64,000 nt of DNA from Frigoribacterium faeni. GTDB taxonomy: Bacteria; Actinomycetota; Actinomycetes; Actinomycetales; Microbacteriaceae. The first letter of the stretch is position 1. The number at the start of each line of letters is the position of its first letter. The position numbers and the translations under genes are program-made. Shown here piece after piece: positions 35,667-43,754 of this stretch. Location: the NCBI RefSeq assembly GCF_011761235.1, contig NZ_JAAOYW010000001.1:1054781-1118780 (forward strand). Reading direction: 5' to 3'. Under the pieces are notes generated by a model. The model ran no database searches. It worked only from the letters and a program-made list of their open reading frames with translations, and was not told where the DNA came from.

Positions 35667-37373
35667 CTACTTGCCGGTGACCTTGCCCGGGTTGAACACG
35701 CGCCCCGGGTCGGCCGAGTCGAACAGCCCCTGCATGACGGCGACGCCCTGCTCCGAGACGTCCTGCGCGAGCCACGGGGTGTGCTCGAGGCCGACGCCGT
35801 GGTGGTGCGAGACGGTCGCGCCGGTGTCGATGAAGGCCTGCTGGATGGCGTGCTTCACGACGTCGTACTCGGCCTCGGCCTGCTCGCCGTGCTCGAAGGC
35901 GAAGGTGAAGTAGAGGCAGGCGCCCGAGTGGTACGAGTGCGACAGGTGCCCCATGATCCAGCCCTGGACGCCGATCTGGTCGAACGCCTGGTTCGCGGCG
36001 GCGTAGACGCGCGACGACACGGCGCGCAGCTTCGACCACGGCGCGGCGGTCTCGGAGACGTCGGCGGCGCCGCCGTGGTCCATGAAGAAGTCGCGCAGGT
36101 AGGGGGTGTCGAACTTCTTCTGGTCGTAGAGCTTGCCGGGGCCCTTGCCGACGCCCATGCCGCGGTTCGCCTTGACGATCTTGGCGACGGCCTTCTGGGT
36201 GTGGGCGACGTGCTCGGGGCTGCCCTCGTAGCCGATGAACGACAGGCACATCGCGTCGACGTCCCAGCCCTTGGCCTTCAGCACCTTGGGGAGCGCGTCG
36301 TTGACCACCTTCGAGATGCCCGTGCTCGCCTTGGAGGTCGCGAACGAGAACGCGGTCTCGTGCGCGTCCGAGACGCGGGTCACCGACGGGCTGGCGTCGC
36401 TCTCGGCGATGGCCTGCATCGCGGCGAGGCCGTCGTGCCACGACGGGAACAGGTAGGCGAGGATCTCGCGCTTCTCGGGCAGGCGGTGCACCTGCGCGGT
36501 CACCTCGGTGATGACGCCGAGGCGACCTTCCGAGCCGATGATCATCTCGCGCAGCGACGGGCCGGTCGAGGCGCTCGGCACGGCGCGGATGGCGAGCACG
36601 CCGCCGGGGCGCACGACGCGCAGCCCCTTGGTGATGTCGGCGATGTCGCCGTACTTGTCGCTCTGCATGCCGGAGGAGCGGGTCGCGACCCAGCCCCCCA
36701 TCGTCGAGTGCGTGAAGCTGTCCGGGAAGTGCCCGAGGGTCCAGCCGCGGGCGTTGAGCTGCTCCTCGAGGTCGGGGCCCTGGCCGCCGGCCTGGATGCG
36801 GGCGAGCCCGCCGTCCTCGTCGATGTCGAGCACCTTCGAGAGGCGGCCCATGTCGAGCGACACGACGGTGCGCTCCTCCGTGGGCATCGGCTCGAGGCTG
36901 CCGACGATGTTGCTGCCGCCGCCGAACGGGATGAGCACGACGTCGCTGGCCACGGCCAGGTCGACGATCTGCTGCACCTCGGCCTCGTCGGCCGGGTAGA
37001 CCACGAGGTCGGGCACGCGCTCGAGGACGCCGGCGCGGATGCGGATCAGGTCGCGGATGCTCTTGCCGTAGGTGTGGACGACGCGGTCGTGGTCGCCCTG
37101 GTCGAGGTGCTCGGGCCCGACGATCTGCACGAGCGAGTCGACGACCTCGGCCGAGGCGCGCGAGGCCGGCACCGTCAGCTGCGAGAAGTCGAGGCCGGTG
37201 TCGTGCTGGCCGCTCGTCAGCTCGACGCCGACGATCTTCTTGACGAAGGGCGCGAAGCCGGGCTTGTCCTCGTGGTGGAACGCGACGCCCTCGACGCCCC
37301 AGCCCCACCACTTCATGTGCGCGACGCCGTGGTCGACGACCGTGGTCTCGGGCTTGTTCTGGACGTCGGTCAC
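35667..37373 (-). CDS. FAD-binding oxidase family protein, alkyldihydroxyacetonephosphate synthase-like
   Basis: The 568-residue VAO-type protein has the AGPS layout: MKWWGWG near residue 20, FAD loops PFGGGSNIVGSLEP and GQGPDLEEQLNARGWTLGHFPDSF, STMGGWVATRSSGMQSDKYGDI, GSEGRLGVITEVT, and the signature HHHGVG at about residues 523-528. The triple His is required for ether-bond formation in AGPS, which swaps the acyl chain of acyl-DHAP for a fatty alcohol. It overlaps plsC by 4 bp. D-lactate/glycolate-oxidase relatives are the alternative, but the HHH and WGWG motifs favour AGPS. Confidence 0.85.
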   Translation of the reverse strand: MTDVQNKPETTVVDHGVAHMKWWGWGVEGVAFHHEDKPGFAPFVKKIVGVELTSGQHDTGLDFSQLTVPASRASAEVVDSLVQIVGPEHLDQGDHDRVVHTYGKSIRDLIRIRAGVLERVPDLVVYPADEAEVQQIVDLAVASDVVLIPFGGGSNIVGSLEPMPTEERTVVSLDMGRLSKVLDIDEDGGLARIQAGGQGPDLEEQLNARGWTLGHFPDSFTHSTMGGWVATRSSGMQSDKYGDIADITKGLRVVRPGGVLAIRAVPSASTGPSLREMIIGSEGRLGVITEVTAQVHRLPEKREILAYLFPSWHDGLAAMQAIAESDASPSVTRVSDAHETAFSFATSKASTGISKVVNDALPKVLKAKGWDVDAMCLSFIGYEGSPEHVAHTQKAVAKIVKANRGMGVGKGPGKLYDQKKFDTPYLRDFFMDHGGAADVSETAAPWSKLRAVSSRVYAAANQAFDQIGVQGWIMGHLSHSYHSGACLYFTFAFEHGEQAEAEYDVVKHAIQQAFIDTGATVSHHHGVGLEHTPWLAQDVSEQGVAVMQGLFDSADPGRVFNPGKVTGK

Positions 37374-38347
37374 GGGCGTGCTCCTTCGGACGGGTGTTCT
37401 GGGCCCAGGATACGGGCGGTGTTGGCGTCCTTCAGACGCAGTATCTCGGCGCGCAGCCGAGCGGAGAACTCGAGGGGGGTCTCGCCGGGCTCGGGCCGCA
37501 TCGGGTCGCCGAACGCGACGCCGACCGGCAGCCGCCCGGGGCGCGGCCAGCTCGACCCGCGCGGGTGGGCGATGTGCGCCCCGATGAGCGCGAGCGGGAT
37601 GATCGGCACGTCGCAGGCGGCGGCCAGCGCGGCCGCGCCGGGCTTGAAGGAGGCGACGGTGCCGTCCTTGGACCGGGTGCCCTCCGGGAACACCAGCACC
37701 GGGTAGCCGCGCTCGAGCAGCGAGCGGGCGCTGACGGTGGGCTGGCCGGCCCGTCGACGGGCGGCGATCTTGGCCGCCGCGCGCTTGCGGGCGGCACTCG
37801 GGCCCGCGGACGCCGCGCTGGTGCCGGCGCCGGCGGTGCTGCCGGCGCCCGCGGGCGCCGACCCCGCGGCAGCCGCGGCGGCCGCCACGGCGCCGGGCGC
37901 CTCGGGCCGCGGCGACCCGGGCGTGCCTGCCGGCGTCGCCGTCGACGAGCCGCGCTGCACCGGGAACGCGTTGAAGAAGAGCTCGGTGAGCTTGCGCCGC
38001 CAGGGCACGTCGAAGAAGTAGTCGGCGGCGGCCCCGGTCGCGAGGTAGCGGGCGAGGCGGCGGGGCAGCGCCCCGAGGATGAGCGGCGCGTCGAGGTGGC
38101 TCGAGTGGTTCGCGACGACGATGAAGCCGCCCTCCACGCCCTTCAGTCGGTCGCGGTCGATGACCGTGACGCTCGTGATCGACCAGATGGTGGGCTTGAG
38201 CACGACGCGCTGGGCGACGTAGCGGGCCATCGCGTGGCCGCGCGAGCTGAAGCGGTCCTTGACGTCGACGGCGGCGCGGGCGACCGCCTCACGGCGAGGG
38301 TGCGGCGCGCGTCCGGTCTCGTCGGGTCCGTCGCCTGCCACCGTCAC
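37370..38347 (-). CDS. PlsC-type 1-acylglycerol-3-phosphate acyltransferase
   Basis: The 325-residue protein has acyltransferase motif I NHSSHLDAPLI (HX4D), motif II NAFPVQRGS and motif III VFPEGTRSKDG, then PLALIGAHIAHPRG. A 60-residue Ala/Gly/Lys/Arg insertion separates motifs II and III, unusual for PlsC. It uses acyl-CoA or acyl-ACP to acylate a glycerol- or DHAP-phosphate acceptor at the membrane. The GTG start at 38347 overlaps the SDR stop; the ATG of the AGPS-like gene overlaps its own stop. In this operon it may supply the acyl group that AGPS replaces, or the sn-2 chain. Confidence 0.87.
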   Translation of the reverse strand: MTVAGDGPDETGRAPHPRREAVARAAVDVKDRFSSRGHAMARYVAQRVVLKPTIWSITSVTVIDRDRLKGVEGGFIVVANHSSHLDAPLILGALPRRLARYLATGAAADYFFDVPWRRKLTELFFNAFPVQRGSSTATPAGTPGSPRPEAPGAVAAAAAAAGSAPAGAGSTAGAGTSAASAGPSAARKRAAAKIAARRRAGQPTVSARSLLERGYPVLVFPEGTRSKDGTVASFKPGAAALAAACDVPIIPLALIGAHIAHPRGSSWPRPGRLPVGVAFGDPMRPEPGETPLEFSARLRAEILRLKDANTARILGPEHPSEGARP

Positions 38348-39135
38348 CGCTCCACCGGCGCGTCGGCCGGGGTGCGTCGGCTCGACGAGATCGCCGCCGA
38401 GACGGCCCGCACGGCGCTGCCGGGAGCGTGCTTGACCAGCCCCATGAGCACCTTGTACCGGAGCGTGGGCATCGACACCACCTTGCCTCTCTCGACGTCG
38501 CGCAGGCACGCGGACACCAGTCGTTCGGCGCTGAGCCACATCGAGTTCGGTATGGACGACGACCGGATGCCGGCGCGCTCGTGGAACTCGGTGCGCACCC
38601 ACCCCGGCTGGAGCACCGTGACGCCGACGCCGCTGCCCCGCAGCTCGACCGCCAGGCCCTCGCTGAACGAGTTGACCCACGCCTTGATCGAGGAGTAGCT
38701 GCCCATCGCCATGTGCCCGGCGACGCTGCCGACGTTGACGACGTGGCCCGAGCCACGGAGGCGCATCGCGCGTGCCGCGGACGCCGACAGCACCAGCACG
38801 CTCCGCACCATGACCTCGAACGCCTGGTCGTGCACGGCCGTGTCGGTGCTCGTGAGGGGCTCGTGGACGCCGAACCCGGCGTTGTTGACGAGCAGGTCGA
38901 CGGGCCGGACGGCGTCGGCCAGCCGAGCCGCGACGCGGTCGACGTCGGAGCGGTCGCCGAGGTCGGCGGCGAGCACCTCGACGTCGCGGCCGAGGGCCCT
39001 CAGCTCGAGGGCGGTCCGGTCGAGTCGGGCGGCGTCGCGGGCGACGAGGACGAGGTCCCAGCCGCGGGCGGCGAGTTGACGGGCGAATTCGGCACCGATG
39101 CCGGACGTGCCCCCGGTGACGAGCGCTGTTGCCAT
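38344..39135 (-). CDS. Short-chain dehydrogenase/reductase, candidate acyl/alkyl-DHAP reductase
   Basis: The 263-residue classical SDR has cofactor loop TGGTSGIGAEFARQL, NNAGFG, catalytic Ser in VNVGSVAGHMAMGSYSSIKAW (Y..SSIK active site) and PGWVRTEF. ATG 39135 is chosen over 39222, which would overlap the divergent operon. As first gene of the AGPS operon it is a plausible NADPH-dependent reductase of the ketone of alkyl-DHAP. Sequence alone cannot exclude other ketone substrates. The divergent promoter region is only 85 bp. Confidence 0.8.
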   Translation of the reverse strand: MATALVTGGTSGIGAEFARQLAARGWDLVLVARDAARLDRTALELRALGRDVEVLAADLGDRSDVDRVAARLADAVRPVDLLVNNAGFGVHEPLTSTDTAVHDQAFEVMVRSVLVLSASAARAMRLRGSGHVVNVGSVAGHMAMGSYSSIKAWVNSFSEGLAVELRGSGVGVTVLQPGWVRTEFHERAGIRSSSIPNSMWLSAERLVSACLRDVERGKVVSMPTLRYKVLMGLVKHAPGSAVRAVSAAISSSRRTPADAPVER

Positions 39136-39220
39136 GACGCTTACGATACGGTCTTGTCGGGAATCCGCGTGCATCGTGCCCCGATCACCACCGCCACGAG
39201 GTCCCTGGAGGAACACAGCC

Positions 39221-40042
39221 ATGACGACCGCTCGCGACCCCTACGACTCGGGCGCCTTCGACATCCGCGCGTTCACCCTCACCGCCCAGGGCACGCTGCG
39301 TCCCGAGCTCGACCTCGCCCCCTTCGCGACCGCACCGGTGGGCGCCGACGAGCTGCGCCTCCTGCGGCACCTCGGCCGCCTCGAGAGCGCGACCATGGAG
39401 CACCTCCGCAACCTGCTCGTCACGGCCACCCACAAGGACGCCCGCGTCACCGCATTCCTCGTCACCTGGGCCTTCGAGAAGTTCTGGATCGCCGACGCGA
39501 TCGACGCCGTGCTCGAGGCGAACGGCGAGCCGCGCCTCAAGGACGTCGAGGAGGGGCCCCGCCGACACAGCGCCGGCGAGGCCGTCGAGCGGCGCGGCCC
39601 GATCACGCGCGCCGTCGAGGCGATCGGACGCGGCGTGCCGATCGTGGCCGTCCACATGACCACCGGACTCGTCGACGAGTGGGTCATGGCGCACGCCTAC
39701 GACGTCCTCGTCGAGCGGGCCGGCCACCCCGCGCTGACCGCGGTCGTCGAGCGCCTCCGCACCGTCAAGGCGCGGCACGAGGAGTTCTTCGACGTCGAGG
39801 CCCGCTGGCGCCTCGAGGACTCGGCCCGCGCCGTCAAGCAGACCCGCGCCTCCTTGTCGACGGCGGTCTGGCCCCTCGGCGCCGTCGAGCGCGCCGACGC
39901 CGAGCGCACCTTCTTCGACGCCGCGGTGTGGGGCGGCGCCGAGGGCCACCTGCGCGCGGACGCCGTCGGCGACCGCGTCGCCTCCCTGCCCGGACTCGAC
40001 GCCTCCGTGGGCGCCGCCGTGACACGAAAGCTCACCGCATGA
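39221..40042 (+). CDS. Ferritin-like protein, degenerate diiron site
   Basis: The 273-residue helical protein aligns with the intact diiron protein at 42461-43288 (shared pattern LR-LR---E, EKFWIADAI/EEFWHGEAL, DEWVMAHAY/NEYSAVAAY, KARHEEFF/QESRHVAFY). Of the six expected ligands only Glu55, Glu153 and His186 remain; Lys87, Ile90 and Lys183 replace Glu, His and Glu. It probably cannot hold a diiron centre. It is first in an operon with the FAR fusion (4-bp overlap), suggesting a structural or partner subunit of the downstream enzyme. Confidence 0.75.
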   Translation: MTTARDPYDSGAFDIRAFTLTAQGTLRPELDLAPFATAPVGADELRLLRHLGRLESATMEHLRNLLVTATHKDARVTAFLVTWAFEKFWIADAIDAVLEANGEPRLKDVEEGPRRHSAGEAVERRGPITRAVEAIGRGVPIVAVHMTTGLVDEWVMAHAYDVLVERAGHPALTAVVERLRTVKARHEEFFDVEARWRLEDSARAVKQTRASLSTAVWPLGAVERADAERTFFDAAVWGGAEGHLRADAVGDRVASLPGLDASVGAAVTRKLTA

Positions 40043-42438
40043 CCGCCTCCGTCCCCTCGTCCGTGCCGGGCTCGACCGAGACGAGCCTCGGCTCGTCGCA
40101 CGTGCTGCTGACCGGCGGCACCGGGTTCGTCGGGCAGGCGATCCTCGAGCGCCTGCTGTCGTCGCACCCCGACACGACCGTCACGCTGCTGATCCGGCCC
40201 AAGGCCGGCACCTCGGCGCTCGCGCGCCTGCGCCACCTGCTCAAGAAGCCCGTCTTCGCGTCGTGGCGCGAACGCGTCGGGGCCGACGAGGTCGAGCGCG
40301 CCCTCACCGAGCGGCTGCGCGTCGTCGAGAGCGGCCTCGGCTCGCTGCCGGCGCTGCCCCGCGACCTCGACGTCGTCATCCACAGCGCCTCGACCGTGTC
40401 GTTCGACCCGCCCATCGACCAGGCCTTCGACACGAACGTCGGCGGGGCCGTCGGCCTCTACGAGGCGCTCGTCGCGGCGGGCGGCGACCCGCACGTCGTG
40501 CACGTGTCGACCGCGTACGTCGGCGGCATCCGCAAGGGCGTGTTCCCCGAGGCCGCGCTGCGGCACGACGTCGACTGGCGGGCCGAGCACGCCGCTGCGC
40601 GCGACGCCCGCGCCCGCGTCGAAGCGGCGTCGCGGCAGCCCGAGACGCTGCGCAGGTTCCTCGCCGAGGGCCGGGCCGGACACGGCAAGACCGGACCGCA
40701 GGCGGTCGCGGCCGCAGCCGAGGAGGCGCGGGTCGCCTGGGTGGCCGCCCGTCTCGTCGACTACGGGCGCACCCGCGCCGAGACCCTCGGCTGGACCGAC
40801 GTCTACACGCTGACGAAGGCGTTCGCCGAGCGCGCGGCCGAGCAGCTCTGGGCCGCCGAGGGGCACCGCCTGTCGGTGGTCCGCCCCGCGATCGTCGAGA
40901 GCGCGCTGCGCCACCCCTACCCGGGCTGGATCGACGGCTTCAAGGTCGCCGACCCGCTGATCATGTCGTACGCCCGGGGCCTGCTGCCCGAGTTCCCCGG
41001 GGTGCCCGACAGCGTGCTCGACATCGTGCCGGTGGACTACGTGGTGAACGTGATCCTGGCCGTCGCGGCCAACCCGGCCGGCGCCTCCTCGGCCTCGACG
41101 TCCTCCGCTGAGTCCGGTGCCGGTGCGAGTGCCGGTGCCGCCGTCGCCCCCGAGCCGCAGTACTTCCACGTCGCGTCGGGCAACAGCAACCCGTTCCCGA
41201 TCCTGCGGATGTTCGACAACCTCAAGACGTTCTTCACGGCGAACCCGCTGCCGCGCGACGAGCACACGAGCATCCCAGTGCCGACCTGGGACTTCCCCGG
41301 CGTGCGCAAGGTCGAGGGCGCCATCCGCACCGCGCAGCGCGCCAACGACTGGCGCGAGCGCGTGCTCGTGCGGCTGCCGTCGACGACGCGCACCCGCACG
41401 GCCCTCACCGACGTGCAGACGCGCCGGGCCGACCTCGAGTCGCTGCAGAGCCTCACCGACCTGTACCGCCACTACGTGCAGTCCGAGATCATCTTCGACG
41501 ACCGCCGCACGCGCGCGCTGCACGACGGCCTGCCCGCCGGGTCGCCGGCCGACATCGGCTTCGACGTGACCGACATCGACTGGGAGGACTACTTCCAGAC
41601 CGTGCACTTCCCGTCGATCACCGCGATGACGCGCGCCTTCTCGGTGCGGCCCGCCGCGGCCGGGGCCGTGCTCGACACCCGCGCCCTGCCGCAGCGCACC
41701 GACGTCGTGGCCGTCTTCGACCTCGAGGGCACCGTGCTCGACTCGAACATCGTCGAGCAGTACCTCTGGGTGCGCTCGAACGGGTTCCGCAAGGCGGCCT
41801 GGCCGGCCGAGGTCGCGTCGCTGCTCACCGGGCTGCCGGCCTACCTGCGGGCCGAGGGGCGCGACCGCGGCGAGTTCATCCGGGCGTTCCTGCGGCGCTA
41901 CGCCGGCATGCCGGTCTCGCGGCTGCAGGGCGTCGTGCGCTCGGCGGGCTACGCCGAGACCGTGCGGCGGCACACCCTGCCCGAGGCCCTCGCCCGCATC
42001 GCCGAGCACCGCGCCGCCGGGCACCGCACGGTGCTCGTCACGGGCTCGATCGGCACGCTGGCGACCCCCATCGCGCACCTCTTCGACGAGGTCGTCGCGA
42101 GCACGATGCACCAGCGCGACGGGGTCCTGACCGGCTACCTCGCCCAGCCGCCGCTCGTCGACGAGGCCCGAGCGGCCTGGCTCGCCCAGTGGGCCCTCGA
42201 AGAGGGCGTCGACCTCTCGGGTTCGTACGGGTACGGTGACAGCCACGCCGACCTGGCGTGGCTGGAGATGCTCGGCAACCCGTCTGCCGTCAACCCCGAC
42301 GCCAATCTCGCCCGCGAAGCGCTCCGAAGAAGATGGAGCATCCGAGATTGGTCGCGTGCCCGCGGTTCGTCCGCGTCCGGCTCGACGACGGCCCCCGCCG
42401 TCGGCACCACCCCGAAAGGAGAAGGAGACAGGGCCTAG
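40039..42438 (+). CDS. Fatty acyl reductase fused to HAD-IB domain
   Basis: In 799 residues: an extended-SDR reductase domain with TGGTGFVG (residues 25-32), HSASTVSFD and active site Tyr256-x3-Lys260; an Ala/Ser linker near residue 355; a FAR_C-like region to about 520; then a SerB-like HAD domain with FDLEGTVLDS (nucleophile Asp561, Glu563 where most have Asp) and GDSHADLAWLEMLGNPSAVNPD. FAR enzymes reduce acyl-CoA to fatty alcohol with NADPH, the co-substrate AGPS needs. The HAD part's substrate is unknown. It is coupled to the ferritin-like gene upstream. Confidence 0.87.
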   Translation: MTASVPSSVPGSTETSLGSSHVLLTGGTGFVGQAILERLLSSHPDTTVTLLIRPKAGTSALARLRHLLKKPVFASWRERVGADEVERALTERLRVVESGLGSLPALPRDLDVVIHSASTVSFDPPIDQAFDTNVGGAVGLYEALVAAGGDPHVVHVSTAYVGGIRKGVFPEAALRHDVDWRAEHAAARDARARVEAASRQPETLRRFLAEGRAGHGKTGPQAVAAAAEEARVAWVAARLVDYGRTRAETLGWTDVYTLTKAFAERAAEQLWAAEGHRLSVVRPAIVESALRHPYPGWIDGFKVADPLIMSYARGLLPEFPGVPDSVLDIVPVDYVVNVILAVAANPAGASSASTSSAESGAGASAGAAVAPEPQYFHVASGNSNPFPILRMFDNLKTFFTANPLPRDEHTSIPVPTWDFPGVRKVEGAIRTAQRANDWRERVLVRLPSTTRTRTALTDVQTRRADLESLQSLTDLYRHYVQSEIIFDDRRTRALHDGLPAGSPADIGFDVTDIDWEDYFQTVHFPSITAMTRAFSVRPAAAGAVLDTRALPQRTDVVAVFDLEGTVLDSNIVEQYLWVRSNGFRKAAWPAEVASLLTGLPAYLRAEGRDRGEFIRAFLRRYAGMPVSRLQGVVRSAGYAETVRRHTLPEALARIAEHRAAGHRTVLVTGSIGTLATPIAHLFDEVVASTMHQRDGVLTGYLAQPPLVDEARAAWLAQWALEEGVDLSGSYGYGDSHADLAWLEMLGNPSAVNPDANLAREALRRRWSIRDWSRARGSSASGSTTAPAVGTTPKGEGDRA

Positions 42439-42460
42439 CGCCCGAGCCTCCTGACGCCAC

Positions 42461-43288
42461 ATGGCCTTCGACATCGACAAGTTCGCCGCCACCAGCGAGC
42501 GCATCACCTGGGACGACCTCGACCTGGACCACTTCAAGGAGAACCCGCTCAGCCCGGACTCCCTCCGCACGCTGCGCTACATGGCCGACGTCGAGTACCA
42601 CACCGTCTGCTACACCCGCGACCTGCTGACGACGCCCTCGCACAAGGAGGGCGACGTCTCGACCTTCATGACCATGTGGAACCGCGAGGAGTTCTGGCAC
42701 GGCGAGGCCCTCGCCGCCATCCTCGAGGTGCACGGCGAGAAGGTCGACTACGACCAGCTCCGCGCGAACCGCCTCAAGCTCGGCTGGCGCGACAAGCTCG
42801 ACCCGGTCAAGCAGGGCCTGCTCGGCAAGTTCGTCGGCTCCGACTTCGTCGCCGTGCACATGTCGTGGGGCGCCGCCAACGAGTACAGCGCCGTCGCCGC
42901 CTACAAGCGCATGGCCGCCCTCGAGAAGGACCCGGTGCTGGCCGAGCTGCTCGTCCGCATCGCCCGCCAGGAGTCGCGCCACGTCGCCTTCTACGTCTCG
43001 CAGGCCCGTGAGCGGCTGCTCAAGAGCAAGAAGGCGCAGAAGCTGACGCGGTTCCTGCTGCAGAAGGTCTGGGCACCCGTCGGCTCGTCGATCATGGAGC
43101 TCGACGACGTCAAGTTCGTCTTCGGCCAGCTGATGAGCGGCGAGGAGGGCCGCAAGGCCGCCGAGAAGCTCGACGCGAACATCTCGAACCTGCCCGGCAT
43201 GTCGGGCCTGACGATCTTCCAGAAGGCGCTCGACGGGCTCGGCGTCACGCACGGGCCCGCCACGGGCGGCTCCGTCAGCGTCGCCTGA
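42461..43288 (+). CDS. Ferritin-like diiron oxygenase/desaturase candidate
   Basis: The 275-residue four-helix-bundle protein has a complete diiron ligand set: Glu45, Glu77-x2-His80, Glu141 and Glu171-x2-His174. This is the pattern of soluble acyl desaturases, related oxygenases and aldehyde-deformylating oxygenase. It lies 22 bp after the acyl reductase in the ether-lipid cluster. By context it may desaturate the alkyl ether, oxidise the fatty alcohol or aldehyde, or desaturate acyl chains. The diiron fold is well supported; the reaction is not. A terminator follows. Confidence 0.82.
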   Translation: MAFDIDKFAATSERITWDDLDLDHFKENPLSPDSLRTLRYMADVEYHTVCYTRDLLTTPSHKEGDVSTFMTMWNREEFWHGEALAAILEVHGEKVDYDQLRANRLKLGWRDKLDPVKQGLLGKFVGSDFVAVHMSWGAANEYSAVAAYKRMAALEKDPVLAELLVRIARQESRHVAFYVSQARERLLKSKKAQKLTRFLLQKVWAPVGSSIMELDDVKFVFGQLMSGEEGRKAAEKLDANISNLPGMSGLTIFQKALDGLGVTHGPATGGSVSVA

Positions 43289-43406: not shown

Positions 43407-43754
43407 GTGAAGACGAGCCACCTGCGGCACTTCCTCGTCGCGGCCGAGGTGCTGCACTTCCCCGTCGCGGCCGACAAGCTCGGCATCTCGCGGCAGAAGC
43501 TCGAGTCGTCGATCGAGGCGCTCGAGCTCGAGTTCGGGCAGAAGCTCTTCGACCGCGACGCCTCGCCGTACCGTCTCACCAAGGCGGGACGCGCCGCCGT
43601 CGTGGTCGCCGAGGAGGAGCTGGCCAGCCCCTCGACCCCGCCCGCCCCGCCTGCTCCCCCGGCCGGCGGCAAGGCGAAGGCGTCCAAGGGCAAGGGACGC
43701 ACCCCGGCCGTCAAGGGCCAGCCCAAGCCGTTCAAGAAGCGCCAGGGGCGCTAG
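43407..43754 (+). CDS. Stand-alone LysR-type helix-turn-helix with Lys-rich tail
   Basis: The 115-residue protein starts at GTG 43407 after GAGAGG. Residues 1-65 match the LysR DNA-binding domain (HLRHFLVAAEVLHFPVAADKLGISRQKLESSIEALELEFGQKLFDRD). The effector-binding domain is absent; a Pro-rich linker and a basic tail (GGKAKASKGKGRTP, KPFKKRQGR) follow. It resembles a small nucleoid-associated protein more than a normal LysR activator. No downstream remnant of the missing domain is visible, so it seems a settled short form. Confidence 0.78.
   Translation: MKTSHLRHFLVAAEVLHFPVAADKLGISRQKLESSIEALELEFGQKLFDRDASPYRLTKAGRAAVVVAEEELASPSTPPAPPAPPAGGKAKASKGKGRTPAVKGQPKPFKKRQGR

Follow-up and report, generated by a model that had tools for sequence, protein, structure and literature searches.

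Six genes of the actinobacterium Frigoribacterium faeni very probably form, to judge from their sequences, a cluster for the biosynthesis of ether lipids. They lie at positions 35667-43288 of a stretch of 64,000 nucleotides, here called the window (contig C1:1054781-1118780, in a genome of 3.2 Mb), and encode an alkyldihydroxyacetonephosphate synthase (AGPS), a PlsC-type acyltransferase, a short-chain dehydrogenase/reductase (SDR), a fatty acyl reductase joined to a HAD domain (FAR-HAD), and two ferritin-fold proteins, F1 and F2. It is likely that the cluster makes plasmalogens, membrane lipids that contain a vinyl ether, and the best explanation, held with fair confidence, is an oxygen-dependent plasmalogen pathway in which F2, together with F1, serves as a non-homologous 1′-desaturase. 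This reading is carried by the enzyme families, their catalytic residues, the conservation of the cluster, an association with reports of dimethyl acetals, and searches of cluster genomes in which a known vinyl-ether enzyme was not found. The substrates, the order of the steps, the acylation of dihydroxyacetone phosphate (DHAP) by the PlsC of the cluster, a complex of F1 with F2, and the reaction of F2 are what we infer.

In the proposed pathway, FAR-HAD would reduce branched acyl chains to fatty alcohols. DHAP would be acylated by a PlsC-type enzyme, assumed here to be that of the cluster, or else the product of another gene of the genome. AGPS would then exchange the acyl chain for a fatty alcohol, creating the ether bond, and the SDR would reduce the ketone to alkyl-glycerol-3-phosphate, which would be acylated and receive its head group. 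Lastly, F2, accompanied in most lineages by F1 as a catalytically dead partner, would desaturate the alkyl chain between carbons 1′ and 2′ to yield the vinyl ether.

The genes are arranged in two divergent sets: the minus strand encodes AGPS, PlsC, and SDR, and the plus strand F1, FAR-HAD, and F2. An earlier note on this DNA had described two divergent operons with overlapping genes, and all six genes were found in that arrangement. Overlaps of 4 bases join AGPS to PlsC, PlsC to SDR, and F1 to FAR, and the spacing from FAR to F2 is 22 bases. By the gene coordinates, SDR and F1 are separated by an intergenic region of 85 bases (39136..39220, assigned to no strand), presumably a shared promoter region.

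The flavoprotein (35667..37373, minus strand, 568 residues, GTG start) is, on its sequence, a true alkyl-DHAP synthase (AGPS, EC 2.5.1.26). It contains both FAD_binding_4 and FAD-oxidase_C, and in a phmmer search of the PDB it matches Dictyostelium AGPS (2uuu) at 1.2e-120 over 500 residues, which is near full length, mammalian AGPS at 1e-82, and glycolate oxidase at 1.3e-20. The HHH motif, which had led to an AGPS-like call in the earlier note, reads SHHHGVG. The positions matching H300, R419, R515, Y578, and H615-617 of guinea-pig AGPS, which we take to have active-site roles, are invariant in 79-80 of the 80 cluster relatives. The AGPS assignment of the note is thereby confirmed. In another family (L194-L197), a cluster-type AGPS of 58-60% identity occurs with the other five genes not nearby. 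Proteins designated AGPS2, of 35-40% identity, are found in many actinobacteria; those inspected have no FAR or F2 adjoining, except in genome G570, and they were treated as a different group. Several of their genes adjoin glycerol-3-phosphate-dehydrogenase-like genes, as judged from the sequence by eye. G570 carries FAR-HAD (39%) and AGPS (34%) 4.5 kb apart (L177), besides an orphan F2 relative.

FAR-HAD (40039..42438, plus strand, 799 residues) scores 156 bits with PF07993, 108 bits with PF12710, and 29 bits with PF03015, the last under its cut-off. Residues 16-528 match the fatty acyl-CoA reductase structure 7eoz (1.4e-44), and YxxxK is kept in 84/84 relatives. The features of an alcohol-forming reductase, namely, NAD_binding_4 with its glycine motif, YxxxK, and a C-terminal Sterile domain, are all recognized, the Sterile match being sub-threshold. 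The HAD domain has DxEGT in place of DxDGT, with the Glu invariant in the 84 relatives. The PlsC-type protein (37370..38347, minus strand, about 325 residues, inferred GTG start; PF01553, 74 bits) is proposed as a DHAP or alkyl-glycerol-3-phosphate acyltransferase. H81 of its HX4D motif and the Glu of FPEGTRS are invariant in 85 relatives, and D86 is present in 83. The SDR (38344..39135, minus strand, 263 residues; PF00106, 149 bits) is proposed as the alkyl-DHAP (ketone) reductase; Y147 and K151 are found in 87/87 relatives, and its best curated model, matched with a score under the cut-off, is mycolate reductase, which likewise reduces a keto lipid. The families assigned in the earlier note (PlsC acyltransferase, SDR, fatty acyl reductase, and ferritin-like proteins) are confirmed. 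The SDR and FAR of which it spoke are both present, but the fusion that it described is one of FAR with a HAD phosphatase-like domain, and the SDR is a separate gene.

F2 (42461..43288, plus strand, 275 residues) is a soluble ferritin-fold diiron protein and the best current candidate, a fairly probable one, for a soluble diiron 1′-desaturase. Its ligands E45, E77xxH80, E141, and E171xxH174 are invariant in 108/108 sequences. AlphaFold predicts both proteins with confidence, the pLDDT values being 87 (F2) and 92.6 (F1), and the best folds for F2 are the soluble acyl-ACP desaturases 7t63 and 1oq9 (4e-4 to 8e-4, TM about 0.6), followed by R2-like ligand-binding oxidases. F2 combines the predicted ferritin-like fold and the six diiron ligands of an acyl-ACP desaturase. 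Its score with PF03405 (acyl-ACP desaturase) is 20.4 bits against a cut-off of 22.7, and that of the Jiangella F2 is 18.6; membership in a named Pfam or NCBIfam family was rejected, all matches being sub-threshold. Matches of F2 to AcsF and to a designed bundle are confined to a short segment at its final ExxH motif. F1 (39221..40042, plus strand, 273 residues) is a ferritin-fold paralogue of F2 whose diiron site is degraded. It retains E55 and E86, whereas the position of the first ligand His is occupied by I, L, V, or M in 100/100 sequences and that of the last ligand Glu by K in 94/100. No Pfam or NCBIfam match was obtained for F1, and its fold search gave R2-like oxidases, with a resemblance weaker than that of F2. 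F1 is under looser constraint than F2, but it is constrained nonetheless, since the ratio of nonsynonymous to synonymous substitution rates (dN/dS) is 0.08-0.56 in the pairs compared, against 0.01-0.18 for F2. On these sequence features, F1 is proposed to be a noncatalytic partner subunit, dispensable in Jiangella. Of the two ferritin-like proteins, F2 has the complete site, whereas F1 has lost ligands and looks like a partner only.

The divergent order of the six genes is found in Agreia, Subtercola, Frigoribacterium, Frondihabitans, Galbitalea, Glaciihabitans, Herbiconiux, Salinibacterium, Lacisediminihabitans, Homoserinibacter, some Microbacterium, and others. Because this order is kept over many genera, at about 40-90% identity, and every cluster gene has a dN/dS under 1 in all pairs compared, the cluster is far beyond what chance would give. 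The co-occurrence across Microbacteriaceae that the earlier note had suggested checking was counted for two of the six genes: among 299 Microbacteriaceae genomes, cluster AGPS and F2 are both present in 82, F2 only in 9 (one at a contig edge), AGPS only in 2, and neither in 206, so that F2 accompanies AGPS in 82/84 genomes (Fisher p 2.5e-60, for genomes that are not phylogenetically independent). The full cluster is present in Subtercola lobariae, Agreia bicolorata, A. pratensis, and Frigoribacterium, and the F1-F2 pair in 12/12 genomes from the genus that was matched to Subtercola.

Other arrangements also occur. In a different family (L198), all six genes are co-linear on one strand, as one operon, and a rearranged full set is found in Phytoactinopolyspora (L131) and at L201, L203, and L204. 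In Jiangella, FAR, SDR, PlsC, and AGPS form one operon and F2 is unlinked, which represents an association without linkage; F1 was not found in this genus. Full sets, the unlinked F2 of Jiangella, and a core without a nearby F2 (L200) are all observed, so that the ether core and F1-F2 can be regarded as separate modules which in most cases occur together. AGPS, PlsC, and SDR genes of the cluster type are also present at L199, in a genome (4.4 Mb, 75% GC) from another family.

Reports on lipid composition bear on vinyl ethers in cluster-bearing strains only indirectly. In four Subtercola species, about 21-29% of the profile consists of dimethyl acetals (iso-16:0, anteiso-15:0, and others), and in Agreia their levels are low (PMC5945732); F. 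faeni and F. adelgis show a 15:0 anteiso aldehyde/dimethyl acetal peak (PMC12823222). The dimethyl acetal reports to which the earlier note referred, for some psychrophilic Microbacteriaceae, are thus real, and they concern the cluster-bearing genera Subtercola, Agreia, and Frigoribacterium. As far as the citation in PMC7472656 goes, the branched dimethyl acetals of Subtercola were identified by gas chromatography-mass spectrometry (GC-MS). In Kineococcus rubinsiae, GC-MS identified the MIDI peak “C14:0 2-OH” as anteiso-15:0 dimethyl acetal (PMC7472656). Subtercola type strains have 3.9-15.6% “2OH-C14:0” in a MIDI study (PMC9287328), and the same type strains are reported with 9.7-11.0% anteiso-15:0 dimethyl acetal (3.2% in S. 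vilae), values consistent with this reassignment. C14:0 2-OH is also reported for Frondihabitans (PMC5945732), F. faeni (17.0%), and Glaciihabitans tibetensis (4.2%) (PMC7033078), and these three genera carry the cluster. In aerobic actinobacteria, MIDI “C14:0 2-OH” may often be a misassigned anteiso-15:0 dimethyl acetal (PMC7472656, PMC9287328, PMC5945732); if so, taxonomic records may hide plasmalogens. That dimethyl acetal reports go with the cluster is an association in few and related genera, those with readable data being few and including no named negatives.

Could the flavoprotein be a lactate/glycolate-type dehydrogenase and its neighbourhood something other than an ether-lipid pathway? 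FAD_binding_4 and FAD-oxidase_C are common to both enzymes, and the GlcD model gives a weak match (129 bits, where the cut-off is 568), but the near-full-length AGPS match is 100 orders of magnitude stronger and the AGPS catalytic residues and HHH are invariant. Kinship with lactate or glycolate oxidases, a point raised in the earlier note, is disfavored by the same comparison (1.2e-120 vs 1.3e-20); that identity was rejected and has next to no probability. An explanation that is unlikely, though of more weight, is that saturated alkyl ether (plasmanyl) lipids are all that the core makes. F1-F2 would then modify the lipid in another way, by hydroxylation or in-chain desaturation, and the dimethyl acetals of fatty acid methyl ester profiles would stem from fatty aldehydes set free by FAR or by some other source. 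The Frigoribacterium report, which merges aldehyde and dimethyl acetal (PMC12823222), would fit this explanation, as would the likeness of the F2 fold to R2-like ligand-binding oxidases and the existence of F2 relatives without ether genes. However, the Subtercola dimethyl acetals assigned by GC-MS in the cited account total about 20% or more, which is high for free aldehydes; the reported chains are mostly saturated and branched, leaving an in-chain desaturase without an obvious product; and F2 stands alongside AGPS in nearly all AGPS genomes. It is rather improbable that F1-F2 acts as a diiron oxygenase in its own right, which owes its place next to the ether genes to ancestry and plays no part in ether lipids, any vinyl ether being the work of another enzyme. 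F1-F2 loci that stand alone in Agromyces, Leifsonia, and Humibacter and the orphan state of distant F2 genes are in its favor, but the unlinked co-occurrence in Jiangella, the co-linear L198 operon, the AGPS/F2 counts, and the failure to find CarF and PlsA candidates in 14 and 15 genomes, respectively, count against it. The solitary genera can moreover be secondary losses, and one Agromyces-group genome carries the full cluster.

Several observations weigh against the plasmalogen pathway with F2 as its desaturase. Free aldehydes can also yield dimethyl acetals. No homologue of F2 was found whose reaction is known. In L200 and in draft G101, the FAR-SDR-PlsC-AGPS core has no F2 in its vicinity, and F1-F2 is present without FAR or cluster-type AGPS in the tested genomes of Agromyces, Leifsonia, Humibacter, and Glaciibacter flavus. 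In other actinobacteria, distant F2 relatives (35-46%; L036-L048) are orphan genes, with no obvious lipid genes around them. S. endophyticus has no C14:0 2-OH by MIDI (PMC9287328), though F2 is present in every genome sampled from this genus. The solitary F1-F2 loci are L029-L034, L070, L072, L073, L087, and L091 (Leifsonia, Agromyces, Humibacter, and Glaciibacter); the pair may act there on another substrate or on scavenged ether lipids, or it may be a relic. No functional hints were obtained from the neighbours of solitary F1-F2 or of distant F2 genes.

The proposed pathway resembles that of animal peroxisomes and endoplasmic reticulum (FAR1, GNPAT, AGPS, PexRAP/DHRS7B, and PEDS1) in its homologous AGPS and FAR, in an acyltransferase and an SDR in matching roles, and, as proposed here, in an oxygen-dependent last step. 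Unlike it, the cluster is one bacterial gene set, with a PlsC-type acyltransferase instead of GNPAT, FAR fused to HAD, and a soluble diiron protein pair instead of PEDS1. The membrane protein CarF/PEDS1 (PF10520, Lipid_desat), which had not been seen in the window either, was found in 0/14 cluster genomes, in a search where no positive control genome exceeded the cut-off. The myxobacterial system (ElbD, MXAN_1676, and CarF) likewise belongs to an aerobic bacterium, with branched chains and AGPS-type ether formation, but the cluster lacks CarF and has separate FAR, PlsC, and SDR genes where ElbD is, by description, multidomain. With the anaerobic synthase PlsA/PlsR, the cluster would share the class of product; however, the cluster would build the ether from DHAP, whereas PlsA/PlsR reduces a finished diacyl lipid. 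PF09989, which we take to be the marker domain of PlsA, was found in 0/15 genomes, the control genomes being positive, in agreement with the earlier view of a route unlike the anaerobic one. A conventional CarF route and the anaerobic PlsA route were thus looked for and not found in these genomes. Soluble acyl-ACP desaturases (FA_desaturase_2, PF03405) share with F2 the ferritin fold and the ligand pattern E / ExxH / E / ExxH, but F2 is only about 17% identical to them, falls below the Pfam cut-off, and is paired with a ligand-poor paralogue.

In reviews, aerobic bacterial plasmalogens are essentially confined to myxobacteria and made by CarF (PMC9131029; see also PMC9702350). A literature search on plasmalogens and Microbacteriaceae found no relevant paper. 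Genes for the dimethyl acetals of Microbacteriaceae are assigned in no paper found, and the linked six-gene set would explain them. With slightly more reserve than for the pathway itself, we favor a third, unrelated solution for the vinyl ether, consisting of the soluble ferritin-fold F2 plus dead F1, with aerobic plasmalogens widespread across Microbacteriaceae, present in some other actinobacteria as well, and hidden in taxonomic data as “C14:0 2-OH.” If true, this would provide a compact model of the human plasmalogen pathway in a bacterium and point to a new desaturase class.

Next to F2, a LysR-type helix-turn-helix protein without an effector-binding domain (43407..43754, plus strand, 115 residues; PF00126, 49.5 bits) is a possible cluster regulator of uncertain membership. 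In Frigoribacterium, this small gene is kept beside the cluster, 92-97% identical and next to F2 (L133, L136-L138, and L144). Among named neighbourhoods, these loci also come closest, with about 72-97% identity by gene, and the likeness extends to cysK and to the small LysR gene. In Subtercola lobariae (L140:7596-11938), the interval from FAR to F2 also encodes a Lar_N (lactate racemase N-terminal) protein and an additional PlsC, and a YegS/DAGK-type lipid kinase follows F2; the additional PlsC is also present in the related loci L064, L065, and L147.

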